From contig SSNU01000129.1 in assembly GCA_012064415.1 (NCBI GenBank), positions 91,438-155,437 of the forward strand: DNA of 64,000 nucleotides, given 5' to 3'. Below, one piece after another: positions 9,541-61,926 of the stretch (position 1 is the first letter of the stretch; the number at the start of each line of letters is the position of its first letter). Under the pieces are notes generated by a model. It was not told the origin of the DNA, made no database searches, and saw nothing but the letters and a program-made list of their open reading frames with translations. The DNA comes from Gyrodactylus bullatarudis (Eukaryota > Platyhelminthes > Monogenea > Gyrodactylidea > Gyrodactylidae). The position numbers were made by a program, and so were the translations under genes.

Positions 9541-9597
9541 GTCGGTGTAAGGTCTGAAGAGAGCCGACGAAAATAAAAGCTTTTATTCACCTAACCT
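9541..9597 (+). ncRNA. Hammerhead-like ribozyme motif A
   Basis: Core CTGAAGA (9554-9560) and GAA (9569-9571). Stem III is the perfect 16-base palindrome AATAAAAGCTTTTATT (9572-9587), which includes an AATAAA polyadenylation signal. Predicted cleavage is after C9588. Stem I is AGGT (9550-9553) with ACCT (9589-9592), then an A-A mismatch and two more pairs. GTCGG (9541-9545) is perfectly complementary to CCGAC just before GAA (9564-9568). A conventional stem II hairpin is reduced to one possible G-C pair. Confidence 0.75.
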
Positions 9598-9620
9598 CTT
9601 TCGTCGTTCTAACTACCAGC

Positions 9621-9719
9621 ATGACCATTAGTCAGCGCCCCCAGAATATTTTCGAGGAAATAAGGCAATTAATGTCTCAAAATGAAAAATTTGAATTTAT
9701 CAATTATCACGAAGGGTGA
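9621..9719 (+). CDS. Short ORF start downstream of ribozyme module A
   Basis: Frame of 32 codons starting MTISQRPQNIFEEIRQLM, ending at TGA 9717-9719. It aligns with the ORF start at 19547 over 20 residues (M-T-x-x-Q-x-P-x-N-I-F-E-E-I-R-Q-L-M-S), with mostly synonymous or conservative DNA differences, which argues that it was once a real coding start. After SQN the two copies diverge completely, so the element is cut at about the same place in both. The ATG is 33 bases after the predicted ribozyme cleavage site. Function is unknown; it may be the beginning of a gag-like or ORF1 protein. Confidence 0.55.
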   Translation: MTISQRPQNIFEEIRQLMSQNEKFEFINYHEG

Positions 9720-12415
9720 TAATCAAAAATGTTAACTTCTTCCTGAAAACAGTAGATTCCTCTCTACCTCTACGGCCCAATTCGAATTCTTTGTCTAAAG
9801 CTGATCTTGAATATCTGCATTTAACTGCATTTTACATCTTTAAAATTGATAAAAATTTTGGAAAAGTGGAAATTTGGTGCATTTATGTCAATTAGATTTA
9901 GAATAACTTATTATATGCATCAAGTATCGTTTCTCAAATTTTTATCTTTTTGTTTACTATCTTGAGTCCTCATTGTTGCTTAAACAACCAAAAATGATTC
10001 AGATTGTATAACTCATTTGCGACATATTCTTTGGAAGACCAAAATTTTTCAATAGATTCAAAAAACTTGTTTCATCCAGATCTGAGCAAGTATAAAATTT
10101 TATCAAGTTTTACCGAGTTTAACATATTTTTTTCAAAGTTACAATAAATTGATTTAACATAATAACTGGGAGTGAAAAACTTATGGATAAATAGCTCTGT
10201 ATATGAAAGAGTATATATATTTGATAGAGGAAATTCTGAAGGCAAATCCAAAGGGAATAAAAGAAAGCTTAAATTTCTTCTTCTGTGTAATATCCTGATT
10301 TGAAAAATGATTTATCGAATTCTACTCAAAGAAGGCAATGCGTAATTCTTGAATAAAAAAACATACAAAATTAAATGTAGTTTTGATTTGGAACGTGAAA
10401 TTGTTTATCAGTATTAGATTTTGCCTATCTATAAATGAGAAAAGAAATTCGATTACCTTACCCTTTTCATAAAAGCAATGTCTCAGAGTAGAATTAAGTC
10501 AATTATGATTTATTTAAGTCAGAAAAATTGTCAGTTTTTCAGAATATTCGGCTTAGTTTATTCTTCAAATTTTGAAAAAAATATTTCTTTACTCAAAAAT
10601 AATTCTGAACTTTAGACTTATAACTGAAAAACTTATAAAGTAGTCTTTTATCATTTTCTAACATGAATTTAAACATTTCGATTTTTTATTGTAACTCAGT
10701 TGAACGAGCTTTGACTGCATACAGACTTTTAATATTGAAATTCTGAATTTCAGAAAAGTTGAAGGCGTAAAAATACTTTTTTTTGTTAGATAAAGCCTTA
10801 TATTGAAATATAAATATAAAATAATGTGTACAAAATAAATGTAAGTTAATCTGATCAATAGAATGAAATAAATCTGGAATATATTGGAAAGTACAGCTAT
10901 TCTCTATCGGAATTTAGGAAATCTCAATTTTTCAACAAGCTCAAGAAATATTTTCCCCAAATTTATCGAGAATTTTTATCAAGTCAATGAAAGGGCAAAA
11001 GTAGAATGAATAAGTTTTATGAAATAACTTTTCTGCTTACTTTAATTTCAGAATTTCGTTGTATCAAAATAAACATGAAAGTATTGAAAGATAAAAAACT
11101 GAGCAAGTAAAAGACTCATTGTGGTGATCAAAAGTTAATATTTACTGAATAGAGGATTTACCATAAAGATCACAAAAATCTATGATTAGTAATCATTGAT
11201 TACACATTAAGGAAGAAAAAGGACGAATCCGAATCCAAAAGACCTTACTTAAATGACACTAGGTTTGTATTATATATTTCATATGTCAAAAATAAATAGG
11301 TTTCTCTAATTCGAAATACAATGCTTGAACTGAATACATAATATAATAAGGTATCACATGGAGAGTTTGAGTGAGATATAAAACTATATTTCATCAGCTC
11401 TTTTGGGACATTATAGAATCAATCTGAATTTATATAAGCGTGAAATATTGCACAAAATCACTGTTTCTTTTTACTCTTCCATAGAGTTCATTTGAGCATG
11501 AAAATATATCCAATGCAGGATAACTTTTTCTTTTCATGATATGAAAGGAGACTTTGAAAAACAGATAGAAAGACTTCAATCCCCTCCTCTATTGGAAAAA
11601 TTTCTGACTTGCAAGTTAAAAAAAAGAAAAGTTGAATTAAAACAAATGTAATTTCATTTAGAGATTAAATCATGGAAATTCCCATAGATGAGATAATAAA
11701 GGAAAGGGAAAATGTCAGAATTTCCACAGAAGGTCCACACTCTGAGAAGACAAATGAATCAGAGGAAAGATTTTTGTTTTTTTGCAATATAAAGTAGAGT
11801 TATAGATTTTCTCCTCTAGATTGAGTCATTTGACCGTAAAATTTGTCAGAGGTTAAATCAACCAAAGTATGAAGAAAAGTATCATTGAATTCAGAGTTTG
11901 ACTCTTTATTCTGAAGACATTACTAACCACACTATACAACTATATACGACTTTAATGAAGGCTTTTGGTTATTGGGCATTTGTTCAATGATAAAATCCAG
12001 CAAGAAATCATGGTTAGCTTGCCTATTTTCTACATCACATAAAGTCCCATAAGCGAAGCGGCATTTTTCAATGTAGAATATTTCTGAATAAAAGGGAATA
12101 ACAGTTTTGCTTCGACGCTTATGCTTTCTTTTCTTGAAGAGTACTATAAAATTCTCTTTTATTCGCAATTACTAAAACTAAACCTTATTACTCATTAGCA
12201 GGGCAACCAAAAATACTGCCTAAAAATCGGCCCAATATGACATTAAAAAAAGACTTGAAAAATAAAAATAATACTCTAAATATGACTTTTAGCGATTGCT
12301 TGTAAGTAGTAAGACTTAAATATAATTTAAAATATTTATTCAAATTTTTTATCTCGATTATATCGAATACATGTGTAATATTTTAAGTTTTCTGTGTTAA
12401 AATTTGATTCTTTTT
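9720..12415. other. AT-rich interval without recognised gene
   Basis: No recognisable coding homology. A 78-codon minus-strand frame at 11932-12168 (KKRKHKRRSKTVIPFYSE, ending NNQKPSLKSYIVV) is basic and has more balanced composition than neighbouring chance frames. It could be part of the adjacent hAT element or an exon, but I do not recognise it. Confidence 0.4.
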
Positions 12416-13330
12416 TCATAATTGCTCACACTCTTTCAACGTCAGCAGAAAGAAATTTGATATCATTGCATTTTCCTCTGGACTATATTTGGATTCCATA
12501 AAAAGTTTATTCATCTCATTGCTCTCGAGGCTAGTGTTTATATAATTCTTTATGTTAGCTGGATCATTAGGGAATTTTATAGCTTTTAGCTTTGGAAAAA
12601 ACTCTAGTATTGTCGCACTAGATGACTGAATTTCTTTGATTAGAACAATAAATTCCATGTAGTTTGGATCTAAAGTTCTAAAAGCTAAAGAGGCTGTAAA
12701 AAGTTCTAACCTTTATCTGGATTTGGTTTAAATTTCAACAAACTACATGGAGTATATTGCATTTGTACTATTTTCCATATTTAGAACAATGGCTTTCACT
12801 TCGTTAAAATTCTGATTATAGTATTTTATTGCGTTAAGCCATTCACCCCATCGTGTTGTCACTGGCTTGGGAGGTTGTCCAATACGATTGAGTAGTTGTC
12901 TTCGTTTTTTATTGAGGATAGTAAGCCCTTTAACGGTTGCAATCAGGTTGTCACACTCTTTATAAAAGTTCTTAATTTTGCCACAACAATTGTGCAACAA
13001 ATGCGCTAGACATGTGATGTGCAAAAGGTTGGGATAGAGTAAGTGAAGAGTAGAGTTAGTTTCTCTACTCGTGAAATATGATGCGCCATCAGATATTAGC
13101 AAAAAAATTGTTCCCTTCTTATATTCATCTTTGGCAAAATATCATTTATAATTTGAGAAGTCTTAGCTGAATCTAATTTTTCCACCATCAACGTGTTGAA
13201 TTGATTGATGAATCAATCTTTTGTACTAACACTACCTTCTTGATAAAACTTTCCAAAAATTTGATTGGTCAGAGATAAGCCCGATTTGGCATAGACTATG
13301 GACAGATACGGATTGCCCGATGAGATGTAT
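12416..13330 (-). pseudogene. hAT-type transposase remnant
   Basis: Minus-strand remnant of an hAT-like transposase of the kind common in arthropod genomes. Blocks in order are YLSIVYAKSGLSLTNQIFGK, FYQEGSVSTKD, a stop, SQIINDILPK, then after a frameshift LISDGASYFTSRETNSTLH, LYPNLLHITCLAHLLHNC (the C-x-A-H block), KPVTTRWGEWLNAIKYY (the TRWG-WL block) and a C-terminal part at 12416-12658 (FPKLKAIKFPNDPANIKNY). The aspartate of the SD-A/G-SY block is a catalytic candidate. Stops and at least two frameshifts, near 13110 and 12700, show that it is dead. The N-terminal zinc finger and the terminal inverted repeats were not found. Confidence 0.82.
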
Positions 13331-13339
13331 ACCCTAAAA

Positions 13340-15300
13340 CTTGGGCTTGAAAATTTAAGATAGTAGATACTATTTACTGATTAAACCCATGAGCATTTAT
13401 AGGCATTTTGTTGCCCTGCTCATTAGTAACTAGGAATTTCATCAGAGTATTCAGTTAATATCTTAAAATAAGGTAAAGACATCTCAGAAGACATACAGAT
13501 ATAGAAAAAAGTATCACCTTACTTACAAGATAATTCAATTAGGAAAAGAGAGGAATTAAAATTTAATAGGTGCTTTAATCTTATTTGGATTTGATTGCCG
13601 CAGAATTGGCTGATTGAAATAGTTATAGAAATTTGATCTCCTTAATAATTCGAGAATAGATATTTTCGATAATACAGTGTAATATTTCATCAGAACAAAA
13701 TGTAAAATGCTTGCCTTTCTCAATCAATTGCTCATTATGTGTATTACATAATTCAATAATAATAATAATAATAATAAAACTCTCTTATGTCCCACATCAA
13801 CAACTGCCCTCCACCCCTTTTCTCATTTTCTCTTGACTAAACTTTTTTCTAAAAATCACCATCTCTCTCAGCTAGATTATCATTACAAACACAAAATAGG
13901 CATACTACTATTATTTTTATGTACATAGAGTTAGTAAAAAATGGGAAGAATAACTCAAAATTTAGGCAAAAACTTTGAGAAGAGAGTAGAAAATCTCTTT
14001 TTCAATGATACACAACAAAAAGCAATTTACAAGTGTAAGAAAAATAGAGGAATCGATTGATCTTTGGAGTGAGAAATTTACTTTTCATGAATATTATTTC
14101 CCTCTTCTAACCTAAGATTCAAGTTTTCTTTTTGATGTGCTGTTTAGTTCTTTATGCGTATCCCCCCTTCTCACTGAGTCTTTTACTAATATTAATGAAT
14201 TTTTCCATTCCCAAAAACATCGACTACAACAACAGATATTCAATGTTGAGAGAAGAATATGAATTAAATCTCTGTAGATGACATAGATTGATTCATGTCA
14301 AGACCATGCGTTTAATGTGTATTCAATTAATTCAATTCATCATGATTTCTGACAGTAGAATAACAAAAAGAAAAAACATGAAAAGCATACATCAATTCAG
14401 TGATTTTCCATAGTTTTAAGAGAATGTACCCATTTAAAGAGACAGATTCCAAGATTTTAAATTTAAATTTGCATTGTTTTTTGATTTAAAGTTGCAGAAC
14501 TGATTTAAATTTGAATAAAATGGCTTTTGAATTGCTTAAGAATGAAATTTCTCTCTTTTTTTTATAAACTCGGATCTGCCAAAAAACGTTTTTTATTTAA
14601 AAATTTTTACAGAAGCATGAAAAGATATTTTGGAACGAAATTTCATGGGATGATGTTAAAATACTTGAAGATTAATTTTTTCCACGTATTATTCCCAAGT
14701 AATATTATAGATCAACTTCCTTTTAATAATAATAATAGTATGACTATTTAAAATATATATCAAACAAATTATATTGAACAAACTCTTTTTTTATTTATTT
14801 ATCCTTGAGAAATGGGTGCATAATAAATATATTATATTATGTAAAGAGGATATTGCACTTATGTTGGGCAAAAATACAATTTCCTTGCTGTAGTTTAAAT
14901 ACAAAATTTTATTTTGGGAAGATATATTGTTTTCTATCAATTAATTGCTCAAAAAATATTTTTACAATAAAATGCTTAAACTTGGTCTAAAAAATAAAAT
15001 TTCATTGAAGATTAAACACAAAACTTTTGTGAATTTTTGATTATAGAAAAATGAACCTATTTTTGTTTGATAAATTCTGAATTAAAATTGCTCGTATCCG
15101 AAAAACCAAAAGAATGACGAATATTCTGATGTGAATCATGAAAGAGAACTCTTATAGACTTAATTTGATCTCGGTAAAGTTGATTTTTTTACCATTTCTA
15201 ATGCAATTACATTTGCCAAGGAAAAATTTGGTATTGAATTCTTTCAATGAACATTTATTTTCTTTGACCCTCGAGATTTCGTAAGATTTTTCAGAAACCA
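13340..15300. other. AT-rich interval with short repeats
   Basis: Holds an (AAT)n microsatellite at 13753-13777 and, near 14578-14660, a member of a repeat with AAAACGTTTTTTATTT and CAGAAGCATGAAAAG that recurs at 20205-20300 and 37205-37310. The open frames at 14527-14751 and 14805-14990 are compositional. Confidence 0.45.
13753..13777. repeat. (AAT)n microsatellite
   Basis: About eight AAT units. Similar short trinucleotide tracts occur at 29131-29154 and 49727-49742. Confidence 0.9.
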
Positions 15301-15303
15301 CAT

Positions 15304-15712
15304 CTAATTAAGGGTACCATGAATAGTTCCAAGTCTGTAAATACCATTTTGTTCATAACTCTCAGCTATTAAACTGATCATGGATTTGAAATCGAGCATT
15401 CCTTTATCAACGTCAGGAATTAAAATTTTGCCGTTGTCTTCTACCTTGAGAGTATGAAAAATCAATCCCTCAGACATAAACTTCCTACAATTCCTGACTT
15501 TCTCAGTGTGTTTTGATAATGAGGGCTTATTAACTAGATTCACTAAAGTCACACTGTTTACCATCATACACCAGAGAATTACCAACACTCACTGATTTCT
15601 CAGACTCACAGTGAACATATCTATTGAATTTTGACAATATTTCTGGTCTAATCTGGATATATTTATGGTCTATTAAAGTCAGAATTGTTCACTATATCTC
15701 ATATCCATGTTG
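15304..15712 (-). pseudogene. Unidentified coding fragment with one frameshift
   Basis: Two minus-strand frames read through in series. The first (about 15712-15530) includes DHKYIQIRPEILSKFNRYV, HCESEKSVSVGNSLVYDG and KQCDFSES. The second (15588-15304) includes NKPSLSKHTEKVRNCRKFM, LIFHTLKVEDNGKILIPDVD, KGMLDFKSMISLIAESYEQN and GIYRLGTIHG, ending at a TAA. Amino-acid composition is balanced and unlike the F/K/N-rich chance frames nearby, so I think this is real decayed coding sequence. I do not recognise the family. It could be a transposon protein or a retrocopy of a host gene. Confidence 0.45.
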
Positions 15713-18700
15713 ATCAGGTCACCTGATTCGGGTACATACCCTCAAATGATAAACATAATATTTAATTTAATAATAATCAGAGAGTAATGCTAACAGAAAT
15801 GATTCCGATGACTATTTATTAGTCATTCATCTCTTGAGGATATATGTATATATGTATAAGGGGGAGATGTATTAATTTTTTGAGTAAGCACATATTTTCA
15901 CAGATCCATTCAAATCGAAATTCAATTACGAATAACTATTAGTAATGTATACGAATGTATCAAATTAGGCATTCAAGTTTCCCGAATCAAACTAATAAGA
16001 GTTGATATTTGTTATCGAATGCATAAAACTTTAAAAGAGGAATTATGGACGACGTTTGATGACAGGTGAAAAAACAACTCTTATTCGAGAAAAAAATAAG
16101 AAAGATGCCGAAAGTTTGAAGAATAGGCAATGCTAATATGTAAAGAAAATTTTAATTAGATCTGATTGTTACTGGGTGAGATTGACTAATGATCATTTTT
16201 ACAATCAGAACTTAAATGAAAGGTTAAATATTGTGAACGAGCTCAAATATTTACTCTCTAAAGAATCATTTATTTGCCAAAAAAGATAGTTATAATCTAA
16301 GACAGACTAAAGAGTGAAATCTAGGAACTTCCGCAATTTTATGGGCATTTCCTAGAATGAATAATTTTCATTGAATATCAACTAATATCAGTTAACTGGT
16401 ATCATAGAAGAATACGGAGCATGGAAATCTATAGATTTTTTCGTTTCCATTAGGCTATAGTTTAATTAAAGAAAGACTCGGATAGTAAGCTCAATTTGCT
16501 TAGGAAATTAAGCTATAGTCGAAATTGAAACTCAATGGTTATTTTCTTTTGAGAAACTGCGATAAAATGCCATTTATTATTTTGATCTGATCATCAATTT
16601 AGTGTTGGTTTTTTTATATGATGTGAATGAAGATTTATATAATTTTATAGAATGTTATTTATAAATCTGAAATCTAACCCTGAATCACTATTTACCGAAT
16701 TTATTTATCACAGGGGATTTTTACAATCTGGCGATGATTTTATTATTCCTGTAATCATAACAGGAATGGATGAATTGTTTCTTTTGGGGGTAGAGCAGGT
16801 CCTTTTCATATACAAGATATTTTTGAGTAAAAGAGAGCAATAAATTTCATGATCAACTTTAATAAATGATAATTAGGTTATGTTAAATCAAAGATACCCA
16901 ATTTATTGTATTGTCTTGATCTAGAAATACAATTTTATGCCTACTTTCAAGAAATGACAAGAATATAATTGAGGGAAGCGGGGGTTAATTTTCCCCATCC
17001 ATTTCGGAGTTACTACTATAGTAGTAAAATTCAAAAATTTGTCAGTAATTTTTCAGATTAGTTTATAATCGAATTTAATATTCTACAGAGTTCTTTTTAG
17101 GGAAATCATACAATTTTATTATCATGTTCATTAAAATGCAATTATAAGTTGTCTAACCTATTCACCGATGTTATGTAATTGTAAGGCTTCAATAAGAATA
17201 AAATGTTTTTTTTGTAGAAAAAATAATAATTCAGTCAAACATTCAATTCAGACTTAATAAAACAAAGTGGAATTAGACAAAGAGAAGAGAGCTCAAGAGC
17301 CCTCATCTCTTTCTCATAGTGGTTTGAGGGACATTTCAGAGTACAGTATAAGACAGTGATGGAGAATTCTCAAGAAATTATCACAAGTATTATTTTTGAA
17401 GAGTAGTAGATTGAGCTAATTTTTTTCCTATCCAATACTAATATATACAGATGAAATTATATATATATATAAAGATAGATAGCTGGTGAATAATTATTTG
17501 AGATATACATATGTTTTTATATCAATGTTTGCTTAGATATATTTGTTAGAGTATAATAATATTCACAGACTTTCATCTCTGTGGGCATGATATTGTTTTT
17601 TTTTCTTTCTTTCTTGATGTGTCAGCTAAGCTCTTCTGTGAGAATTTGGCCAAAGGCAGCCTCCTGGTTATGAGGATGAACTGAAATATCATTAATTAAA
17701 AATTATTCCAAGCCTCCATTCATTTTGATGTATTTTTTTGAGGATAGGAGATATGATAGCGCAATCATAATTATACAAGTTTTTGTACGCGAGGAATAAA
17801 AAACACATCTCACGATTTTTTGAAAAAATTTCTTATCCAATTTTATTTACTAAATTTCAAATTCAATAAATAGAGCTTGTTGATATGTTTTTTTCTTTAT
17901 TTTAACAACTTATCGGCTCTTTTCATTGTGATTTTTGAAAAAACTTGTTTTCCGGAGAAAATTATTGAGATTAATTCAAGAAATAGGACTCATACCCACG
18001 CACTTAAAAGGTCACATGATCAGAGTTACACGGACGCAGAGGAGACAAAAAAAGAAGCCAATCAAAAAATATTATTAATTTTGTATGAAGCAGAAGAGTA
18101 TGCCATGAAATAACGTGATATTTTTTTACAAACCTGGCATCGCCTTTCTGATGATTTCAACTGTTGCTCAGACTAAAATTCTTGTCAAAAAACCAAAACG
18201 TTTTTTGTTGTATCACTTGAACTAATCCTCTGCTAAGCAAAATAATTGATCCAAGGTTAATACTTTCTATCCTATTCTGAGTTAAGGCTATTTGAAGGAA
18301 TTTACATAAATTAAGAAATCACACAAAATCACTTCGTTCTGCTTCTGATTCCGATCTAGTCGAGTACTTTAGAATCTTTCCCTATATGTTTATTTTCTAA
18401 CAAAAAAAAATATGTGAAGATAAATCCAATAACTTTGGGTTAACTACATCAACTTTAAATTGTTATTATTCAGTATTATTCTCAAAAAGATAATTATTTT
18501 TTGTATGAAAAAGATATTCTCCTCCCATATAATATAATAACAACTTAGTTGAATGTATACATTATACAGTCTATGCTGATGTAGTAAATACATACAAATT
18601 TACAGTACATTGTGTGATCTTTCCCAACTTGACTCTCTATAAAACACACTCTACACTAGAGGGAGAAAAAATTATAACTTGCAAAGCAATATACGTAGAT

Positions 18701-19150: not shown

Positions 19151-19156
19151 AGTCAA

Positions 19157-19460: not shown

Positions 19461-19464
19461 GAAA

Positions 19465-19516
19465 GTCGGTGTTTGGTCTGAAGAGAACCGACGAAAATAA
19501 AGCTTTATTTAACAAA
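19465..19516 (+). ncRNA. Hammerhead-like ribozyme motif B
   Basis: Core CTGAAGA (19478-19484) and GAA (19493-19495). Stem III is the perfect 14-base palindrome AATAAAGCTTTATT (19496-19509), again containing AATAAA. Predicted cleavage is after T19510. GTCGG (19465-19469) pairs with CCGAC (19488-19492). Stem I is weaker: TTTGGT against AACAAA gives five of six pairs. The strand sequence differs from copy A (TAAGGT) on both sides in a matching way. Confidence 0.7.
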
Positions 19517-19546: not shown

Positions 19547-19666
19547 ATGACTCCACGTCAGCAACCCAAAAATATCTTTGAGGAAATCAGGCAACTTATG
19601 TCTTCAAATAAATATTTGTTCAATGATAGTATTATGAGGATTAGAAAAAAAAAATTATTTGTCTAA
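19547..19666 (+). CDS. Short ORF start downstream of ribozyme module B
   Basis: Frame of 39 codons starting MTPRQQPKNIFEEIRQLM and ending at TAA 19664-19666. An in-frame extension reaches back to 19469, but it crosses the ribozyme and is not likely to be used; the ATG at 19547 is chosen because the three modules align from that codon. The start lies 36 bases downstream of the predicted cleavage site, with little between, so the 5' UTR after cleavage would be very short. Sequence after SSN is not shared with module A. Function unknown. Confidence 0.55.
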   Translation: MTPRQQPKNIFEEIRQLMSSNKYLFNDSIMRIRKKKLFV

Positions 19667-19669
19667 CTT

Positions 19670-20590
19670 ATGAAATAATATTACAATTGAAAATCAAAAT
19701 ATTTTTGGGTCTGTATGGACTCCAGTAATATTTATAATTATTTATTATTTCAATGATTGCAATAAAAAATGGTTTTGCAACAGCAACTCTTACAATATAG
19801 ATCTCAGGTTCTAGGTTTTTAGAATTAATTGGGTCAGGATTTGAAAAAAATGGAATTTGGTGTTGGAGCTGTTGGCATCGTTAGACGAATTTAAAATCAA
19901 GCATCTTGCATGACCCAATTAAAATCATGGGTAATCAAAGAATGAATATGATTGGTCAATTAGATTAGGTATGCTTTATTCTATGCAAAGTATATATTAT
20001 GTATAGATATGACCTGTAAAATATGCCTTTAAAAATATGACTTTTCAAAATTGTTAGATTCATTAAAAATAAGAGGAATCTCATTTTTAACTATTCGATA
20101 AATAATTTCAAGTCTTTTTGCAACTTTTCAGGAAAAATTCAGAAAAAAATAATAATGAATAATGTGAATTCAGGTTAAAATTATGAAGATAAAACATTAA
20201 AAAACGTTTTTAATTTGAAAATTTTCACAATATTGTTTATCTTATTCCAGAAGCATGGAAAGGTATTTTGAAGCAAAAATATCAGAATACTTGAAGATTG
20301 AATTTATCACATCGATGGGCGATTTAAGTAATTTTGCAAAATCTCGTTCAAGTCTAACAAACATTATCATCTGAGTACTTAATTTTACTAGAATAGTGAA
20401 TTTTTCGGAGTTTTTCCCCCTAGCCTAATATTAATCACTCATGGAATAAATAAAAATGTATCATTACCAAACATGACGGCCTTGGGTAAATGAAAAATTT
20501 TCTTTGACCAAAATAAACACTATTCGATTCAACAGACTGAATAATTGTGGAATCTCATCATTTCTGATTTTAACTTTTTTGAATGTTCGA
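19670..20590. other. AT-rich interval with a dispersed repeat
   Basis: Around 20205-20300 is a member of the repeat carrying AAAAACGTTTTTAATTTG and CCAGAAGCATGGAAAG, shared with 14578-14660 and 37205-37310. No gene is recognised. Confidence 0.45.
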
Positions 20591-33299: not shown

Positions 33300-33907
33300 T
33301 ATTGGAAAGCAGAGGAAGTAAAACTTGGTTGAATTTATAAAAGGTGTGGTTACTAAACTTAGTTAAAATTTTACGTAAAAATCAATTTTTAAGGAAATTA
33401 TGGCATATTTCGAATCCCAAGTAAGCGCTAAACAATTTTTTGAGCTTTAAGTCGAAAATTTTTGCTAATACCAAAGTCAGAGAGGGAACAAAAATTGATT
33501 TTTAGGATCACAATAAGACAAGAAAACCGATCATCACCATAAAACTTTGGAAAAATCTGTCATTTTCGAGTAGGGAAATTGATCAAAAAACCAAAATTCA
33601 AAATTTGCGATTCTTAAAATTTGATTCAGAGTATTGAATTTCTTTGTCTTATTGTGATTCTCAAATCAACTTTTGTTCCGTCTCTAACTTTGAAATCGGC
33701 AAAATTTTCTGACTCAAAGTTCAAAAAGATTGAAGTTTAGCGGCTACTTGGGATTCGAAATATCCTATAATTTCCTTAAAACTTGATTTCTTCAAATCGT
33801 GAAGATGGGTCTCATGATCCAGATTTCAAAAAATCTAGATCAAACTCGAATTCTTGACGAAAAAATTGAGTATTTTGTAAAAACCATATCTTCATCTTAG
33901 CTTTAGG
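33300..33907. repeat. Fold-back element FB2
   Basis: The arms carry AATTGATTTTTAGGATCAC versus TTATTGTGATTCTCAAATCA, with the same pairs of blocks in mirror order around a centre near 33570. The right end is CATCTTAGCTTTAGG. It contains no transposase. Confidence 0.6.
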
Positions 33908-34087: not shown

Positions 34088-34350
34088 AAATACTCTCTTA
34101 ATTTATAAGTTTCACGGCGACTGCGGTTCAACTTATCTTGGAAGAACTATTAGAAAATTAAGTACTAGGACAAAAGAACATCTTTCAAAGAACACTTCAG
34201 TTCATAAACATTTGACGGAAAATAATCATAATGCTGACTGTTCCAATTTTTCAATATTTTATAAGAACTCAGGTGATGACAGCACTGATTAAAGAGAAAT
34301 TCTTTATTAATACTATTAAACCAGATCTGTGTGTTCAAAAGAACCATACA
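34088..34350 (+). pseudogene. PLE GIY-YIG endonuclease, second copy
   Basis: Plus-strand frame with KPEENTLLIYKFHGDCGS, TYLGRTIRKLSTRTKEHLS (GIY-YIG core as TYLG), NFSIFYKNSGDDSTD, then a stop and a +1 shift into EKFFINTIKPDLCVQKNHTY and the C-terminus LILPWPM before TGA. It matches the GIY-YIG part of the element at 1-415 closely, so it shows the C-terminal end that the first copy loses at the window edge. The RT portion upstream of about 34080 is absent. It is followed directly by a 3' region with ribozyme F. Confidence 0.88.
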
Positions 34351-34610
34351 TATTCTCTTATATTACCCTGGCCTATGTGAGCTTTTTCACCTTTTTTCTT
34401 CAATTTTGCTATTAATGTTGAGTTTTTGGGTGTTTTTTTCAGCTTGCATTATCTTCTTTTATGAAATTTGCTTCTTACTATTTTCATTCTTATATTTGTA
34501 ATTTTATTATTTCAATGATTATATTTATAATTTCCATTTTTAAAGTAACACTGCTGATGAAGCTTTAAGAAATACGTATTCAGTGTAAATAAAACTCTTG
34601 TTTTTTCAAT
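34351..34610 (+). mobile_element. PLE 3' untranslated region with ribozyme
   Basis: T-rich 3' region after the PLE stop codon, similar to the minus strand of 40935-40740 (shared GAGTTTT-GGTGTTTTTTT-AGCT block, then ATTTTTAAAGT). It ends with hammerhead-like motif F and an AATAAA at 34588-34593. Confidence 0.75.
34540..34586 (+). ncRNA. Hammerhead-like ribozyme motif F (PLE 3' end)
   Basis: Core CTGATGA (34554-34560) and GAA (34569-34571). Stem I is ACACTG (34548-34553) with CAGTGT (34581-34586), six perfect pairs. Stem III is the loop-less palindrome ATACGTAT (34572-34579). Predicted cleavage is after T34580. TTAAAG (34540-34545) is perfectly complementary to CTTTAA just before GAA (34563-34568). 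Published work describes hammerhead motifs with reduced stem III in Penelope-like elements that act as dimers; this position and fold agree. Confidence 0.82.
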
Positions 34611-38800: not shown

Positions 38801-39060
38801 TGAAACATATATTGACCATAATTTTCTTGAAAAAATTTTATAAATGGTAAAAGAAAGCAATCTGATCCGGATTCGAAAATAACATTTATTTTAGTCGAGT
38901 TCTTGATGAAAAAATTGAGATTTTTTTTTAATTTCTAGATTCCCAATTACAAATATTAATTTTTTATCGGGAAACAAAAATGAGAGATATGAATTACACT
39001 GTACAGAGACATCGGTTTTGACCTGAGTTACCGATACTGAGTTAATTTGAAGGAAAGACT
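35889..39060. other. AT-rich interval without recognised gene
   Basis: Includes the third member of the CCAGAAGCATAACAAGG repeat at 37205-37310. The open frames at 36318, 36666 and 37440 show no recognisable homology. Confidence 0.4.
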
Positions 39061-39061
39061 G

Positions 39062-39102
39062 ACTTTATTTCTGGCATACTCATCAGCGTGATACATGCCA
39101 GA
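39062..39102 (-). ncRNA. Partial hammerhead-like motif E
   Basis: On the minus strand TCTGGCAT (39102-39095) and ATGCCAGA (39077-39070) form an eight-pair helix enclosing GTATCACG and CTGATGA (39086-39080), followed by GAAATAAAG. This matches motif D at 61.8 kb nearly base for base up to GAA. Downstream, a palindromic stem III and the stem I partner cannot be found, so the 3' half is decayed or missing. Confidence 0.5.
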
Positions 39103-40741: not shown

Positions 40742-40788
40742 TCACTAAATGTACATTTCTCAAAGGATCATCAGTAGTGTCACTTTAA
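40742..40788 (-). ncRNA. Hammerhead-like ribozyme motif G (PLE 3' end)
   Basis: Minus strand. Core CTGATGA (40774-40768) and GAA (40759-40757). Stem I is CACTA with TAGTG (five pairs). Stem III is the palindrome ATGTACAT (40756-40749). TTAAAG (40788-40783) pairs with CTTTGA before GAA (40765-40760), with one G-U. Compared with motif F, stem III changed from ATACGTAT to ATGTACAT while staying palindromic, and the stem I G-C next to the core became A-T. Both are compensatory changes. Confidence 0.8.
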
Positions 40789-47034: not shown

Positions 47035-47200
47035 AGGTTCTAAATTCATTTGGGTGGTTTAGAGAACAACAAGCGAATATTTGAGTGATAAACGTTATAT
47101 TTCGCCGGGTCTCTTCAGAATCTACCCTGGTTAACATGTAAATACTAATTATGATAATCAATTGGGGACCTTCCATTTGTTGATATTCTTATTGACTCTA
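47035..47200. mobile_element. MITE copy carrying ribozyme-like motif H
   Basis: Similar to the element at 53593-53838: GGTTCTAAATTCATTTGG end, AACAACAAGCGAATATTTGA, a central CCGGGTCTCTTCAGA block, and ATCAATTGGGGACCTTCCAT. The right inverted repeat is eroded. On the minus strand the order is CCAATTG, TATTTA, then motif H. Confidence 0.65.
47083..47130 (-). ncRNA. Decayed hammerhead-like motif H
   Basis: Minus strand. Core CTGAAGA (47118-47112) and GAA (47103-47101), stem III ATATAACGTTTAT (palindromic with a one-base bulge), cleavage triplet TAT-C, then ACTC. The strand before GAA is CCCGG; the upstream partner is CCAGGG (47130-47125), a mutated form of the CCGGG seen in motif I. Stem I is partly mismatched. 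Confidence 0.5.
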
Positions 47201-53592: not shown

Positions 53593-53838
53593 GATTCTAA
53601 ACTTATTTGGAAGGATAAGAGGACAACAAGCGTTTATCTGAGTGATAAATGTTATTTTTTGCCGGGTTTCTTCAGACTATCCCGGTTAACATACAAATAC
53701 TCATTAATAATTAGTAATTATATAGTGGTCGCACTCACCATTTTAAGGCACACAAATTTGTAATAATCAATTGGGGACCTTCCATTGATTTATCACTCAA
53801 ATAGACGATTGTAAACCCTTCAAATGAGTTTAGAATCT
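53593..53838. mobile_element. MITE with inverted ends carrying motif I
   Basis: About 245 bases with inverted ends: ATTCTAAACTTATTTGGAAG (left) against CTTCAAATGAGTTTAGAAT (right), followed by CTGAGTGATAAATG versus ATTTATCACTCAAA. The interior holds, on the minus strand, CCCCAATTG, a TATTTG element and hammerhead-like motif I. No ORF. Confidence 0.75.
53636..53685 (-). ncRNA. Decayed hammerhead-like motif I
   Basis: Minus strand. Core CTGAAGA (53675-53669). CCGGG (53685-53681) is perfectly complementary to CCCGG (53666-53662). The GAA is mutated to AAA (53660-53658), so this copy should be inactive. Stem III region AAATAACATTTAT is nearly palindromic. Cleavage C at 53644 is followed by ACTC; stem I retains AGT/ACT. 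Confidence 0.5.
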
Positions 53839-53839
53839 A

Positions 53840-54715: not shown

Positions 54716-54890
54716 GTCTAGTTAATATGAAGATGGGAATTATGGTTTTTTTGCAAAGTCGATGAAATTTTGATATTTCAGGATCCCTGAAAAATGACGA
54801 TTTTATGATGATGAGCGGTTTTTTGACTAATTTTTATCTTAAAAGTCAACTTTTGATTACTCTCTCATATTTAAATGAACAAAAGTTAGA
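54716..54890. repeat. Fold-back element FB10, internally deleted
   Basis: Starts CTAGTTAATATGAAGATGGG, jumps directly to the central block TTCAGGATCCCTGAAAAATG found in FB8, then continues with the right-arm block AAGTCAACTTTTGATTACTC. Confidence 0.65.
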
Positions 54891-55802
54891 ATAGGTCTAT
54901 TATGTTAACGAAAAGCTTATCAAACTGCTAAAGTTCGATGGTCTTCAATGCAAGTGATTACAGATTGAGTTATTTATTTTTTTAAATTCTGTTTTCTTCA
55001 TGTTTATGTTCCGAGTGAAGCTGCCATTGTTTTTTTCACATTAATCATTTATAGATTTTTATTAATCCCATCTGGAAATAAAGAAAGCCCTATAAACATG
55101 AAAAATGACAGCTAATAGAGAGATTATCAAAGTAACAACTATGCGTAAGAATGTTTAAGCAGAACAAAAATGCATCTCTTTATTTGAAAAGAATTTGCTT
55201 TAATTATAATTATCTATAGAGTGATTAATCATTTGAAAACAGAGAATTCGATAGAGGTCATTGGGAGTTTCTTCTCAAAATCTCGAGGCAGTTAGTACAA
55301 AATGAACTTTAAGAAGACTCATCTTGAGACCTTAGAGAAGAGTAGAGGGCCTCAGTAAGAAATTGTAATGCAGAAATAAGTTAGAGTATTTAGATTAAGC
55401 CTTCGAAAAAAATTCAAAATCTACATGGATATGTTGAAAATTGATAAGAACATAAAAACAGTATTTTACGAAATGATAATAAATCACACGTTTTTCAATA
55501 TATTCTCAACAATATCTTAGGCATAAAATCAATTTTGAAGAGGTTAATAAAGTTTTCAAAAAAGGGGTTAATTTATGAAGCTCTTGAAATTGGCAATAAT
55601 GATACTTGTAATGGAAATGTTGGTGATGTGAACATTGAGCTGTATTGAATTCAGCTCTTTGGCAAAGAAAGGAAGTTACATTAAATCTGATGAAAATTAG
55701 GTTTATCACTATTATACTATTATCTAATCTGATTGGACAAAATCGATAGGAATGAGATCATGAAGATACAAAAATAGTATTTTATGTTTGATGAGCTCAT
55801 CG
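54891..55802. other. AT-rich interval, no recognised gene
   Basis: The minus-strand frame at 55506-55709 is not recognised; nothing else seen. Confidence 0.35.
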
Positions 55803-55852
55803 TACCACTGAAGAAGGCGCATGAATACAATCACCATCGAAACGTCTGGATG
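55803..55852 (+). ncRNA. Hammerhead-like motif J with canonical 3' core
   Basis: CTGAAGA (55808-55814) and, 24 bases later, GAAACGTC (55839-55846): GAA, the self-complementary ACGT as a two-pair loop-less stem III, and a GUC cleavage triplet. Stem I is CCA (55805-55807) with TGG (55847-55849). Stem II between the core parts is imperfect (GGCG against CACC). The GAAACGTC end is the form reported for Penelope-associated hammerheads. Weaker than A to G because the helices are short. Confidence 0.5.
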
Positions 55853-56702
55853 ACCAATAGCTCAAAATACAAATATGAAACTAATTCTAGATAATTTTTT
55901 ACCGAATCCGAGGATATTTATCATTGTTTTTAGTTAACTTGGATCACTAAAAGTAGTCTTTTATACGCTCTAATTATTCATAAAAAAGTTTTCTACTTCT
56001 TACATTCATCATAATTCGCAAAAAAATATATTTTTTATTTTTCCCACTACCATACTACAATTAGTCAAAGTGACCTCAAAATTTTACTGGTCATTACTCA
56101 AAATTGGCAAGTAAAGTATCATTAGGAAAGAAAGATTCATTAAGATTTCTCACTAAAGAAGGGAAAAAAAGAACATACAAACAATGAATGTGTCAACCGG
56201 GAATATATTGCCCTAGTAATAATGAGTCAATAGAAGAAACACTTTTTGACATGTTACCATTGAAGAAGAAATAATAACTAAATATAAAGAAAGTGGTTGG
56301 GTATTGTAAGGGTAGCCAACATTATAGCTGCTTGAGAGTAAAGAAACATACTCAAGTTGAGATTAATTACTTTTTTCACTTTCCACTCACGTCCTTCCAC
56401 AAGTGGGTGACCAGAAAATAAAAGAGAGTTCACAGAATTAAAAAAAGAGAATCATAGTACAGTTTTATTCATCAATGAATACACACTCTGTTCAAGGCTA
56501 ACTAGGATCTTACTCTATCTTTCTTCTTCCTTCACAACAACTGAATGAATGTGTGGGTAGATGTTTGTCAAATTTGAAAGATGACATATTTACTACTAGA
56601 GCATTTAGTCTTAGTTTTTCTTGCCTATCATAAGTAATCAGAGGAGCTGTTTAAATTATTATAACGATCGAAAATTACTTCGCTCGCCATATCTGTACGA
56701 CG
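55853..56702. other. AT-rich interval, no recognised feature
   Basis: Nothing recognised on either strand. Confidence 0.35.
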
Positions 56703-57195
56703 TAGGGATAGATTTTTCAATTCTAATATGCTCAATTTAATTTTCCCTGGTTGAAAATGTGGTTCAGAATAAATTTTTAGTTCGAACTATTTAAATCTTT
56801 ATCCAAAATTATTTTCTATTAAATTGGCAGTGATAGTGTCAAAGTTACATTTCTTGTCATAAATCTCTCAAATTTGATCTTATTACTTTCAAGTAGTCAT
56901 GGAAGATTTACAGGTTTTTGATAGAAATGATTGATCCGTGAGACTTATTTCACTTATACTAAATTGAAAACGATTAGGAGAAAAATATTTTAGCTTCTAT
57001 CATGAGAAAAATGGCCGAAATCAAATTCAGCAAATTTTTTATCACATTAATTTTAACACAAGATCCGTGTTTCTATAGCAACAAGTTCATAAATAGATTT
57101 CAGACTATATGTTTTATACATCATTCGAATTCTCCTAAAGAGACCATTTAGATTCTGATCCAGGCTAGAAATCGAAAATTTGCAAAATCCATCTC
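56703..57195 (+). repeat. 490-bp duplicated segment, copy 2
   Basis: Partner of 31176-31664, same orientation, 25.5 kb away. It carries a small insertion (CAAGTAGTCATGG in place of CGAGATGA) and a few substitutions. Confidence 0.9.
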
Positions 57196-58144
57196 AACTG
57201 TACGTTAATAATAAAATCATAGTAAGGAGTAATTTTAGATCACATTTTTGCATTTATATCAGTACCAATCGGACGTCTACGACCTCATAAAAACATTAAT
57301 ACAGCATCTTTATTTACTTTAGTTTCCAAATACCATAAATCAAGGAGGGGAGCCATTTATGAATCAAGATTAAAATCTTTCTTATAAAGTGGACTGATCA
57401 AGACTGATAGAGCTCAAATAACCGTTTTGCACCAGATACGTCTGAAATGGAACATAATCTGATCATCATTTTCAATTTTATAATATGCAAATAAAAGGAA
57501 CTCAAATCTCCATTTCAATCTATCTCAGGATTAATTTGAATGGGATGAATATTATTAAGCAAATAGAAATGAAATATATTTGAGAGAAAGAGAGGATTGC
57601 GGGGTGGATGTCTGTGGAAAGTAAACATTCTTTTCACATTTGAGGAGATTTGGAAGCATTTTCTCAAAATTAAAATCCAACTCTGATAGAAATATGTGAA
57701 AGGTAAGTGGTACATTTTATAAAGGAATTTCTTTATGTACACTATTTGAAATTACCTTTTAGAGAATTCAACTTTTGGACAATAGTTTACAGCCAGTGTA
57801 GGGTAATACAAAGTATTTTTTTCCCGAACAACAGAAAAGAAGATTTTCATAAATTAGAGATGTTCTGAAATCAAAATTGTTTAAAACTCATCAAAATTTT
57901 CAGAAAATGATGAGGATATTTAGTGAAGGGATTCTGATAACTATCAGAATAATTCCCATCCGAAAAGTCATACAGATTTCTCAAAAACGTGAATTTTAAC
58001 TATTAGCATTCATTCAAAATTTTTTTGGCGTGGATTTAAAAATGATAATTTTCAAATGAGATTTTGTATTTCAGAACAAAATTAAAAATATTTAATTCAA
58101 TAGGGCCTTTTTGTCAAAATCTGGCTCTCTATCGAATAAGCATA
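57196..58144. other. AT-rich interval, no recognised gene
   Basis: The minus-strand frame at 57515-57742 is not recognised. Confidence 0.35.
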
Positions 58145-58146
58145 TA

Positions 58147-59281
58147 CAGTGAACTTCCTAAAAAAAGTATATAAAGAAGAGGATCTGAATAAAATATTTT
58201 AACCTCTTTACTAATGAGTAATGAGATGAATTTAAGATCTATCCTCTTTGAGTGCTTCTATCTCTCTCATTTCAAGTTCAAATGTGTTGAAAATTTGAAC
58301 ATGTCACTTATGTCTATCCTTCTATTATCAGAATAATTTTCTAATTCATATCTCTTAAAACAACAGAGTTTACTATTTTTTATCTTAGCTCATTGAATTG
58401 AACAGCATTCGATGCAGAATCAAAAGTTGAGTCAGCTGCCTAATTTCCATTCCAAAATAATGCCTGGTGACAGTTTAAACCGAGCTTAAACCCCACTTCT
58501 TATTTTTTAAACTACACTGACTAAAATCCTGACTACTTTTTTTTGTTAGACGAATTTCTTATATTTAAATAAAATTGATAATTACAAAATAATAAAGTAA
58601 TCTTTATAGAGGTTTTCGTTCAAAGCAAAATAAATGAAAAATGATGTATAAATAAATAAAAAAATTGTTCTATCGAATTCATCAAATTGGCGAATGAGAT
58701 TAGTAATCAATGATAAGTTATCATTGATAACTAATCGTAAGGTTATAAAATATGAAAAACTAATCTGCAATCAAAACGAAAATCATCTGGTTAATGGAGG
58801 TATGAATAAAGTAAAGACTTAGAGTAATCTAATTTAGATCTAATGTGTGACATGACAGATTTAAGATTAGTCAGGTCATTACAATCAGACANNNNNNNNN
58901 NNNNNNNNNNNNNNNNNNNNNNNNNNNNNNNNNNNNNNNNNNNNNNNNNNNNNNNNNNNNNNNNNNNNNNNNNNNNNNNNNNNNNNNNNNNNATTCTGCA
59001 TCGAATAGTGTTTAATTCAGTGAGCTAGGATCAAAAATAGTGAACTCTGTTGTTTTAGGAGATATGAATTAGAAATTTATTCCGGTGATATAAAGATAGA
59101 CATAGATGACATGTTCGAATTTTCAACCCATTTGAACTTGAAATAAGAGAGATAGAAGCACTTAAAGTGGGTTGACTTGGGGAGAAAAAATCTTAAATTC
59201 ATCTCATTACTCATTAGTAGAGAGGTTTAAATATTTTAGTCAGATCCTCTTCTTTATATACTTTTTTTAGGAAGTTCACTG
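58147..59281. mobile_element. Tc1/mariner-like long-inverted-repeat element
   Basis: Ends CAGTGAACTTCCTAAAAAAA at 58147 and its complement ending at 59281, each immediately flanked by TA (58145-58146 and 59282-59283), the target duplication of Tc1/mariner elements. Inverted arms of about 290 bases (58147-58430 and 58993-59281) match at roughly 90% by eye. The inner 0.5 kb has no transposase frame, contains a palindrome around 58703-58737 and the N run. It is a non-autonomous element. Confidence 0.82.
58892..58992. other. Assembly gap (N run)
   Basis: 101 undetermined bases inside the loop of the inverted-repeat element at 58147-59281. The plus-strand open frame at 58843-59028 crosses it and is meaningless. 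Long inverted repeats often break assemblies, which explains its position. Confidence 0.98.
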
Positions 59282-59374
59282 TAGCTGAATAAGTTGAAAA
59301 ATTTAAGAAAAATTGGTCATTTTTCAAATTTCGATTTGGCGCCAAAATGCCATTTTTTCAAAAATGATTAATAA

Positions 59375-59640
59375 TTATAATTCAACTCCCAAACGATGAT
59401 GAGCATTAGAAAAGATTTAGCATAATTAACTTTCTTTTTTTATTTTTTCCTAAAAATCTTCTTTTCTCGCTTAAGCTGCTGCATTTAGCAAGCCTTGCAC
59501 CTGCTACAAAAACGCAGATGGAACGTCAAGAGACAGTCGTTTGCATCTAGCTCAACCATTAGAAGTGGTCACTTGACGCCTACGATACACTCTACGATCG
59601 TAAATCAAATACTTTCAAATCAATAAATATTTTCTTACTA
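59375..59640. repeat. Repeat copy with 170-bp G+C-richer insertion
   Basis: The flanks AACTCCCAAACGATGATG ... GATTTAGCATAATTAAC and CAAATCAATAAATATT match 26288-26385. Between them, about 59455-59605 is a segment of nearly balanced composition absent from the other copy. One plus-strand frame there reads AAAFSKPCTCYKNADGTSRD and SRLHLAQPLEVVT before a stop. Origin unknown: exon, retrocopy or short interspersed element. Confidence 0.45.
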
Positions 59641-61204
59641 ATTTGTTGGTCCTATGGAGTCATGTCTATAGATGTCCATTGTAGGAACAGATTTCAGATA
59701 TTTAAAGGTGTTAGATATTTCGAGTTTTATTCAAATTTTTAGAATGATAAGGACATAATAGAGCTAAATCTGTTCAAATTGACGTTCATAGTGAAATTCT
59801 GTTTCCTTGTCTAATGAGGATCCTAAAAGATAACTTTAGATCCTTGAAATCAACAAGAATTCTCAGCTCAAAGTTTAAAAAAATGGAACCAACTCCTAAT
59901 TTATTTTACAAACAAAAGATCGACTAGAGTAGTATCATCAAATTGCGATCAGTAGATATTAGTGATTTTTGGATCGATTTTCCATCCTGAAACACTATAA
60001 TTAATCATATACTCGACGATAACGTAATATACCATCTGTTAGCTTAGCTCTCAAATATTCTAGTAAATTTATTTCAAGTATTAACCATTCTTATAAACCA
60101 TTATATACGTATATATATATAGTCAAATCAAGAAAATTATGTTTTTCCATTAAGTTATCATCAAATTTTCAATTTTTATCTCGGAATGATTTAACAAACT
60201 GTATTTCCCCTACTCAAACGCATACACACTTGTTGTGCAATAAATCATTAAAGGAAATGATACAAATGATATTTGTTTAAATAAATGAAAAAATTAAATA
60301 ATGAAGAAACAGTATTTGTAAAGTTCATTACGGAGAAATATTTAGTACAGTACCAAAGTTTTAGGAACAAATAAATCATTTATATTTTTTGATTCTTCTG
60401 ATTAAAGTAAAGAAAAGATTTAATTTGAGTATTGAGCAAGAAAAAATGTAAATTATATAATTCGTCCTAATGAAAATTCCGATCTTTGAAAATATTTACA
60501 TTCAATCCAAGGAAATCTTATTTTTAAATAAACACATGCTACTTTTTAATCTGAAATTGATATCAATCTAATACCTTTTAACTTGATATAACTTTCTTTT
60601 TATTAAGTTGTAAACAGAGGAAATTTTAGAATTAGTTCAACCTTTTAACAACATTTCAAGATTATCAATACTCACTGACTAATTTGAGGGCTTGTCCGAA
60701 TTGTAGTATATTGACAATGAAAATCACTAGAAACATCATATTCTTTCTACTACTCCACTTGAAGTTTCTAAAAATTGAATACGGGTTTATCTCATTGTTT
60801 TTTTGATAGAATAATAATTTTCTAACTTTATTTATCTAAACAGAATCTTGGTTTTTGTCTATTTGGGTGCAAATCTCTATGGTCTTTCACTTAACCTGTG
60901 TCTTATCCGGCGTGACATGATTTTTGCACCAGATAATCTAGTATTCCTTTAAATCCTTTACATTCAGAAATGTTATCAAGTAAATACGTTACGTTCTCAA
61001 ATTCTGATTGGTTCTTGATCGTGGTTGGCTATCATCTCTATCCCTATACTGATGCATCATAATGAACGAATTAGAAGAAACATTTCAAACTAAACAATAC
61101 CATGTTCAGCACTGGACTAAAATTTATGGTGTAATTCATTAAAAGGATTATTAGTGAATGATAGCAAGTTTAATCTCATCAAAGTCTAGTTCTATTTTTT
61201 GTTT
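59641..61204. other. AT-rich interval, no recognised gene
   Basis: A fold-back fragment lies at 59775-59890. Nothing else is recognised. Confidence 0.35.
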
Positions 61205-61650
61205 TTTATTAAGTAGTTTAGGTAAAAGGATTTCTGGGGCAAGTACAGTTTCCACTTTCACGATCTGAAGAAAAAAATCAATTCTTATGGCAAATATTTC
61301 AAATCTAGAGATGGCGTAGAGTTCGCATTTTTTGAACTTTGAGTTAAAATTTTTGATTTACAAGTGAGAAAGTGAAAAAATTGGTCTTTTGGGATCACGA
61401 TTAATCATAGCTATAAAATATGGTGAATAAGATTTTTAGAATACGCACATCATCGACTACTCGTGAGCCTGTGTATCAATTTCTCACTTTTAAATCAATA
61501 ATAATTTTCAACTTAAAATTCAAAAAAATAGGATTTCTAGATTGGAAATAAGCCCTTAAATTGATTTTTTACTTCAGATCGTGAAAGTGAAAACTATCAA
61601 AAAATCTTGATCAAATTCGATAACTTGATGAACAAATTTATGATTTTTGT
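61205..61650. repeat. Fold-back element FB11
   Basis: Mirror blocks TTTCCACTTTCACGATCTGA versus CAGATCGTGAAAGTGAAAAC, and ATTTTTTGAACTTTGAGTT versus ACTTAAAATTCAAAAAAAT. Both ends are decayed. Confidence 0.65.
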
Positions 61651-61746
61651 GAAAATTAAACAAAAAGTCGATATACGAAAAACGGCCTAATTTTGGTCAG
61701 ATTGAATTTTTTTCGGAATTTTTTCGAATATCCACATCTTATTCCA

Positions 61747-61926
61747 TGAAAATAAGAAGACGCCAAAGTATTTCACAAATAAAGATCTCTATTTCAGGCA
61801 TACTCATCAGTGTGATACATGCCATATAAGTACAGTTTTTAGAATTTTATAAAATAAGGTCCCTGATGAGTATGCCCGATATAGAGATCTTTATTTGTGA
61901 AATACTTTGGCATCTTCTTATTTTCA
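61747..61926. repeat. 64-bp inverted repeat with ribozyme core in the arms
   Basis: Arms 61747-61810 and 61863-61926 are reverse complements with about three mismatches, separated by 52 bases. Each arm ends exactly at the CTGATGA core of motif D. The left arm on the minus strand plus adjacent loop forms the full motif D; the right arm carries only the 3' half. Confidence 0.85.
61773..61823 (-). ncRNA. Hammerhead-like ribozyme motif D
   Basis: Minus strand. Core CTGATGA (61810-61804) and GAA (61795-61793). Stem I is TCACA (61815-61811) with TGTGA (61777-61773): five pairs, then an A-A mismatch and more pairs (TAC against GTA region). Stem III is ATAGAGATCTTTAT (61792-61779), near-palindromic. 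Predicted cleavage is after T at 61778. GGCAT (61823-61819) is perfectly complementary to ATGCC (61801-61797) just before T-GAA. A TATAAAA lies about 30 bases upstream on the same strand. Confidence 0.78.

Follow-up and report, generated by a model that had tools for sequence, protein, structure and literature searches.

Hammerhead ribozymes have already been described in Penelope-like retroelements, where reviews report forms without helix III; for other hammerheads with a weak stem III, reviews describe action as dimers. Perreault 2011 (PMC3088659) describes a single-pair stem II in one case, a type II hammerhead that was active in vitro and needed a 6-base-pair (bp) pseudoknot for fast cleavage; it also predicts pseudoknots in about 40% of hammerheads of all three types and reports that U10.1-U11.1 is tolerated. 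Eckert 2023 (PMC10085705) presents non-circular hammerhead permutations (SGC, CSG and GCS) and assumes that the CUGANGA block is never interrupted. Here we follow up ten hammerhead-like loci in a 64,000-nucleotide (nt) stretch of DNA from the monogenean Gyrodactylus bullatarudis (contig SSNU01000129.1, positions 91,438 to 155,437; the window), together with one whole genome of 77.3 Mb in 471 contigs. The window belongs to contig 115 of this genome; its G+C content is about 28% for the greater part, and it holds three frames of at least 150 codons. At a probability of roughly 85%, we take the motif that they carry to be a compact hammerhead-type self-cleaving RNA in type I order, located in the pseudo long terminal repeats (pseudo-LTRs) of several families of Penelope-like elements.

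The motif would be best described as a type I hammerhead whose stem II has 1 bp at most, a 5-bp pseudoknot to the 5' leader extending helix II. Its order is that of type I, and it matches none of the compared systems exactly. The minimal type I hammerheads of Penelope-like elements resemble it in the kind of element, in a pseudo-LTR site near the start of an open reading frame (ORF), in type I order and in probable dimer action, but they have no helix III and keep stem II and loop II, whereas here stem III has 3-8 formal pairs and stem II one pair. In PAc (PMC11167929), the ORF starts at stem II and the cut falls 26 bp past the start codon, whereas most of the cuts predicted here precede it. 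A one-base-pair stem II compensated by a pseudoknot is what the motif has in common with the hammerhead of PMC3088659, and U10.1-U11.1 also occurs in an AT-rich family here; however, the pseudoknot described there joins loop I with the 3' tail of a type II hammerhead, whereas here the 5' leader pairs with the stem II segment, in type I order and as a rule across the sampled copies. The permuted hammerheads of PMC10085705 are similar in that the core is held by pseudoknots in a changed topology and a short linker joins the stem I and II strands. The difference is that the block order here is not SGC, CSG or GCS but C, G, S (CGS, type I), in intact copies of the window as well as in those sampled copies where stems I and III form, and that helix II is completed by a strand lying before block C. 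The structural variant appears to be new; the hammerhead kind and the Penelope-like carrier were already known. Our literature search, which left subscription papers mostly outside and may have missed a prior description, returned no account of a type I hammerhead with a pseudoknot replacing stem II.

Architecture and genome-wide support

Read 5' to 3', a copy consists of strand a (about 6 nt), a linker with the 5' side of stem I, CTGANGA, eight bases (x1-x8), GAA, stem III, the spacer base H17 and the 3' side of stem I. Linker and stem I 5' side together measure 7 or 8 nt in the scored copies and 5 in a decayed one (53669). The 5-bp pseudoknot is formed by x3-x7 and strand a, which lies upstream of stem I, and no stem II hairpin of at least 2 bp is found. 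Stem III, whose first pair is A15.1-U16.1, is mostly palindromic. In an alignment of distinct rows with a stem I of at least 4 bp and two outer stem III pairs (54 rows, from 59 of 109 sequences), x1:x8 is paired in 85.2% of rows against 52.9% in shuffles (24 G-C, 13 U-A, 8 G-U and 1 A-U). The bases after CTGANGA cannot fold as a normal stem II hairpin because x2:x7 pairs in only 11.1% of the rows, below the shuffles. The single base x2 must consequently span the pseudoknot helix; H-type pseudoknots are known in which one or two bases cross 5-7 bp of the deep groove.

Genome-wide, CTGANGA-N8-GAAA occurs at 4,865 sites. At other spacings the same words total 2,874 (N3-7, five spacings) and 6,861 (N9-20, twelve spacings), about 570 for each, and roughly 4,300 of the N8 sites are therefore in excess; a reversed-pattern control (156) was set aside as too low. 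For folding we sampled the first 30 sites in listing order (L035-L064) and 60 more, the rest of the listed sites being omitted because their 8-mer was already represented, and the 108 distinct sequences of this genome sample include copies added by family search. Among the first 30 sites, at least 4 of the 5 pseudoknot pairs form in 23, compared with 3.7 after shuffling and 5.1 when upstream parts were swapped between sites, and all five form in 18 (0.28 shuffled, 1.7 swapped). Stems I and III stand in hammerhead register in 16 of the 30 (1.2 shuffled, 3.0 swapped), and pseudoknot and stems occur together in 14 (0.18 shuffled, 1.4 swapped).

The earlier note on this DNA had made its claim depend in part on covariation across genome-wide copies, and covariation is what the 54 distinct rows contain. 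Pseudoknot cells are paired in 89.3% of cases against 52.9% in shuffles and about 51% when the partner is slid by one base, and 120 of them differ from the commonest pair on both sides, compared with 42 in shuffles. The register of strand a was fixed by a rule on the x bases alone, which mis-registered three CCAGG/CCTGG rows and thereby lowered the score. The pairs seen include CCGGG/CCCGG, CCAGG/CCTGG, TCGGT/ACCGA, CCGGT/ACCGG and GGCAT/ATGCC, and, within one AT-rich group, TAAAG/CTTTA, CAAAG/CTTTG, AAAAG/CTTTT, TGAAG/CTTCA and TTATG/CATAA. In stems I and III 90.9% of cells are paired against 57.3% shuffled, in rows preselected for a stem I of at least 4 bp and two outer stem III pairs. A nine-base variant (GTATGCCAC) recurs at G000:C23:232771-232790 and elsewhere, keeping the ATGCC strand and a possible closing G-C. 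A scan of viral contigs for pseudoknot plus core, with two patterns, gave no match; six matches to one pattern in bacterial and archaeal genomes were taken as chance, none of them having stems I and III.

The catalytic rules of the hammerhead were examined with positions 16.1 and 17 left free, A15.1 having been fixed by the search pattern and the genome sites having been chosen by the CUGANGA/GAA pattern. Of 109 sequences 57 could be placed; U stands at 16.1 in 56 of these and G at 17 in none (T 29, C 17, A 11). When different gaps between stems III and I were tried, one base fitted 56 of the 109, and 0, 2, 3 and 4 bases fitted 3, 2, 4 and 2, respectively. The freely found U16.1, H17 and single spacer base are, to judge from the sequences, the hammerhead rules, and we see no DNA-level reason for them.

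Copies in the window

Nine of the ten loci are real, and the finding is larger than first noted. The CTGANGA core is indeed present in all ten, as had been stated, but by itself this word shows no clear enrichment there (39 matches in the window against 30.0 expected, with 7 of 100 shuffles at least as high). What exceeds chance is the full geometry, in which strand a, lying upstream, pairs with the bases ahead of GAA and is combined with stem III, a single spacer base and stem I: five strict matches occur (7651-, 9554+, 34554+, 40768- and 61804-), against a mean of 0.03 and a maximum of 1 in 60 order-1 Markov sequences. Type I order is well supported for nine of the ten loci, four of them decayed. 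The distance to GAA, given before as 8 to 24 bases, is 8 in all nine true copies, with GAA in eight of them and AAA in 53669. The earlier note had also proposed one shared unusual fold; it described stems I and III rightly and left the unusual part, stem II, unstated. Its copies are dispersed only as parts of Penelope-like retroelements rather than as free-standing motifs.

The Infernal searches that had been suggested came out in two ways. Rfam hammerhead models matched nothing in the window, whether at the gathering threshold or up to E = 10, whereas a covariance model built from seven copies, six of them from the window, recovers nine of the ten loci at E <= 0.017. Locus 55803 is absent from the 22 matches of this model up to E = 10 and was rejected as a ribozyme. 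Model E-values near 0.01 decide little, as the stretch 20169-20217, which has no core, reaches 0.0043 and so ranks ahead of locus 39062 at 0.017; the membership of that locus would rest on its intact pseudoknot and family likeness.

Five copies are intact. On the minus strand, the copy at 7620..7671 has strand a at 7666-7671, the 5' side of stem I within 7658-7665, CTGATGA at 7651-7657, the 8-nt segment at 7643-7650, GAA at 7640-7642, stem III at 7627-7639, H17 at 7626 and the 3' side of stem I from 7625 down, with the predicted cut at 7626/7625. The copy at 9540..9594 (+) has strand a at 9541-9546, CTGAAGA at 9554-9560, the 8-nt segment at 9561-9568, GAA at 9569-9571, a stem III palindrome at 9572-9587, H17 at 9588 and the stem I 3' side from 9589. 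In that at 34540..34586 (+), where x1:x8 is A-A, the corresponding parts are strand a 34540-34545, CTGATGA 34554-34560, the 8-nt segment 34561-34568, GAA 34569-34571, the stem III palindrome 34572-34579, H17 34580 and stem I 3' 34581-34586. The copy at 40742..40788 (-) comprises strand a at 40783-40788, CTGATGA at 40768-40774, the 8-nt segment at 40760-40767, stem III at 40749-40756, H17 at 40748 and stem I 3' from 40747 down. The last, at 61772..61824 (-) with G-U at x1:x8, has strand a at 61819-61824, CTGATGA at 61804-61810, the 8-nt segment at 61796-61803, stem III at 61779-61792, H17 at 61778 and stem I 3' from 61777 down. An inverted half copy adjoins it at 61849-61901 (+), and several divergent copy pairs occur elsewhere in the genome, for example on C97, C169, C200, C217 and C414.

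The remaining four are damaged to different degrees. Copy 19478 (19464..19516, +) keeps pseudoknot and stem III with stem I broken, and is followed at 19547 (+) by an ORF start, MTPRQQPKNIFEEIRQLMSSNKY. Copy 39080 (39047..39100, -) keeps the pseudoknot, with stems I and III broken. Two belong to the CCGGG/CCCGG family: copy 47112 (47081..47132, -), with one mismatch each in stem I and pseudoknot, and copy 53669 (53638..53689, -), in which GAA has become AAA and the linker is shortened.

Elsewhere in the genome, Hammerhead_1 of Rfam has 57 matches at E <= 0.001, 29 of them above the gathering score, among the best candidates scored. These ordinary type I hammerheads share the core with our motif and differ in having a stem II hairpin (14 nt from CTGACGA to GAAA in several of the copies inspected); several of those inspected have flanks like those of short interspersed nuclear elements (SINEs), and we take these to resemble the schistosome Sm-alpha. 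Matches L001-L008 lie on G000:C319, C297, C212, C431, C100, C23, C69 and C75.

Association with Penelope-like elements

The copies appear to lie in pseudo-LTRs of several families of Penelope-like elements. Main-family copies come after the C-terminal end of open frames that combine a reverse transcriptase of Penelope type with a GIY-YIG endonuclease, and the distance from ORF end to core is usually 118-178 nt where the match reaches the C-terminus. Around the first 30 sites, a Penelope-like ORF lies upstream in sense orientation at 12 and in antisense at 3, and downstream in sense at none and in antisense at 1. Two neighbouring open stretches of L127 match the Pfam models RVT_1 (38.7 bits, cut-off 29.6) and GIY-YIG (24.1 bits, cut-off 22.6); RVT_1 is below cut-off in L030 and GIY-YIG below cut-off in L125, while the Pfam search gave no match in L029 and no GIY-YIG model in L129. 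In the other loci the assignment to Penelope is one that we presume from likeness between families and from motifs. A protein search with a piece of the Penelope-like ORF returned one distant match (27% identity over 68%).

On the other side of the copies, the first ATG stands 30-43 nt after the predicted cut in 34 of 49 rows (28 of 41 in a recount with longer flanks); the remaining distances range from 9 to 78 nt, and a first ATG need not be the true start. Many of these ATGs open similar N-termini (MTISQRPQNIFEEIR, MNSSTNSDKIFEDAR, MILSGFSDVFENLRE, MSLESSNNILDDVRQ). The succession of ORF end, noncoding stretch and ORF start is the order of a Penelope-like pseudo-LTR, an assignment that comes from local order around single copies. 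In the window this order is present twice. At 9079-9698, a putative Penelope-like C-terminal part at 9079..9417 (+), which matches the C-terminal piece of L030 and ends in QQIHKFFAANKQ and a stop, precedes the copy, and an N-terminal start at 9621..9698 (+), MTISQRPQNIFEEIRQLMSQNEKFEF, follows it. At 7545-7848, on the minus strand, the C-terminal end of such an ORF (KKRGVKRKRCSGQLLLDPFLKKRQ and a stop, 7774..7848) lies upstream of copy 7651 and an N-terminal start (MNSSTNSDKIFEDAR, 7545..7589) after it. Only an ORF end is seen at 34318..34380 (+), that of a Penelope-like endonuclease ORF (KPDLCVQKNHTYSLILPWPM and a stop).

A fragment at 425..835 (-), which is 78-81% identical to the frames upstream of L011, L042, L051 and L061 and gave no match in a Pfam search, is presumably from a Penelope-type reverse transcriptase. 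The C-termini of some of the Penelope-like ORFs (QLQIDNFL, QLLLDPFL, QQIHKFF) resemble what we take to be the PCNA-interacting protein (PIP) box bound by PCNA; such C-termini were seen at 9379-9417 (+) and 7774-7848 (-) in the window and at L029:7148-7855 (+).

Neighbouring features

Several other features were seen in passing. A long inverted repeat at 33408-33760 (+) of the window, which the MIR7533 model matches at E 0.00062, far below its gathering score, is perhaps a palindromic transposon. Broken frames at 4541-6886 (-) resemble a non-LTR retrotransposon, the part at 4541-5218 matching RVT_1 at 38.2 bits, and L029:5857-6906 (-) carries a mariner-type transposase in one open stretch of 350 amino acids (Transposase_1, 68 bits). 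A leucine-rich-repeat gene has its best protein match in the tapeworm Spirometra (32% over 98%), an indication of a flatworm host.

Discussion

We favor the pseudoknotted type I hammerhead, and several points weigh against it or against parts of it. The x1:x8 pair is absent from 8 of 54 rows. Among the first 30 sites, 7 are without a pseudoknot of at least four pairs and 14 without intact stems I and III; such sites are in line with a mixture of chance sites and decayed copies. Only the cell counts and the covariation score clearly exceed the shuffles: two-sided changes are found at all five pseudoknot pairs (4.5 in shuffles), and 17 further pair types are seen (15.2 in shuffles), neither clearly above. 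Related copies share retroelement ancestry and are not independent, so that the shuffles overstate independence and their counts are not to be read as probabilities, and presence of stem I was itself a criterion in selecting the rows for stems I and III. Finally, insertion of one published Penelope element in vitro took place without hammerhead activity, and its cut site showed no RNA-seq ends (PMC11167929); the biological role of cutting is uncertain for these two reasons. The same paper reports one Penelope hammerhead that cuts only with protein.

One rival is a split-core permutation, in which no stem II hairpin exists at all and the 10.x strand has moved to a position before stem I, pairing through 11.1, an arrangement outside the six published block orders. 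In some families strand a can in fact pair through x8 (GTCGGT/ACCGAC, TTAAAG/CTTTAA, TCAAAG/CTTTGA), a1:x8 is paired in 51.9% of rows against 34.6% shuffled, and no more than 14 of the 23 AT-rich rows have a standard pair at x1:x8. Overall, however, x1:x8 is the better supported of the two pairs (85.2% against 51.9%), and it is G-C or G-U in 45 of the 51 rows of GC-rich families, and we consider the split core unlikely as an account of the motif. An ordinary type I hammerhead whose normal stem II hairpin had been overlooked might be suspected from C-G at x2:x7 in 8 of 86 rows, part of them with T-A at x1:x8, and from the Hammerhead_1 matches elsewhere in the genome; yet the scarcity of x2:x7 pairs contradicts the hairpin and Rfam recognizes no hammerhead in the window, which makes this the least credible of the explanations that we weighed.

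It could also be argued that the motif was functional only in the past or only as DNA. If the ribozymes worked in ancestral elements and the present copies are dead repeats, one would point to the damage in four of the nine window copies and to the Penelope-like ORFs, which are broken or truncated in the loci that were fetched. Against this stand two CCGGG-family copies, L014 and L027, that are 99.7% identical over 920 bases, as expected of recent spread, and the preservation of every element of the motif in many copies (14 of the first 30 sites); fossils alone are in our judgement rather improbable. A signal at the DNA level, in the form of protein-bound inverted repeats in a promoter that merely look like a ribozyme, would agree with the exact TATAWAW boxes that 27 of 86 contexts carry, starting 18-42 nt ahead of the core, and the stretch may be a promoter in addition. 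That it is nothing else is hard to reconcile with U16.1, a non-G H17 and a single spacer base, all of which hold though left free, or with helices whose sequences vary while pairing is kept, and we regard this possibility as very remote.

With the pseudoknotted hammerhead as our working model, the predicted cut after H17 would usually fall some 30-43 nt before the ORF start and would separate the ORF and a short leader from everything upstream. Read-through or tandem transcripts would in this way be cut into unit-length element RNAs. Of 27 distinct sequences, 20 have a self-complementary stem III centre, against 5.3 after shuffling of the inner bases, and an 8-base palindrome such as ATACGTAT folds poorly as a hairpin but lets two copies form a good duplex of 8 bp. 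Dimers, in which two copies pair through the self-complementary stem III, are therefore likely, as the sequence and the analogy with other hammerheads suggest.

A more speculative extension concerns the promoter. The exact TATAWAW boxes mentioned above start 18-42 nt before the C3 position, none lies between -75 and -43 in the 86 contexts, and 59 of the 86 have no exact box in the tested range, which speaks against a general rule. If such a TATA-like box set the start about 30 nt further on, transcripts from the element's own promoter might begin near C3, without strand a, and only a downstream, read-through copy could then fold and cut. We tentatively suggest, with somewhat less than even confidence, that the motif represents a separate hammerhead subclass, having one pair in stem II (none in part of one AT-rich family), a helix II supplied by the 5' leader, a palindromic stem III for dimers and a promoter that starts inside the ribozyme. 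Were this true, the 5' end of the element would be spared and cutting would be confined to the downstream copy, so that the RNAs carry a short repeat at each terminus. Hammerheads would also have one more topology, which is abundant in at least one animal genome but was missed since search models require a stem II hairpin.

More generally, thousands of genomic sites, together with compensatory changes, suggest that the best-known small ribozyme can draw its helix II from a strand that is not part of the usual hairpin, which an assumption of the earlier permutation search (PMC10085705) had excluded. Hammerheads of animal genomes and of Penelope-like elements may thus have been undercounted. With a predicted cut that usually precedes the start codon, a mostly palindromic stem III and representatives in several families, the copies described here would provide a test set for the role of hammerheads in Penelope-like elements.

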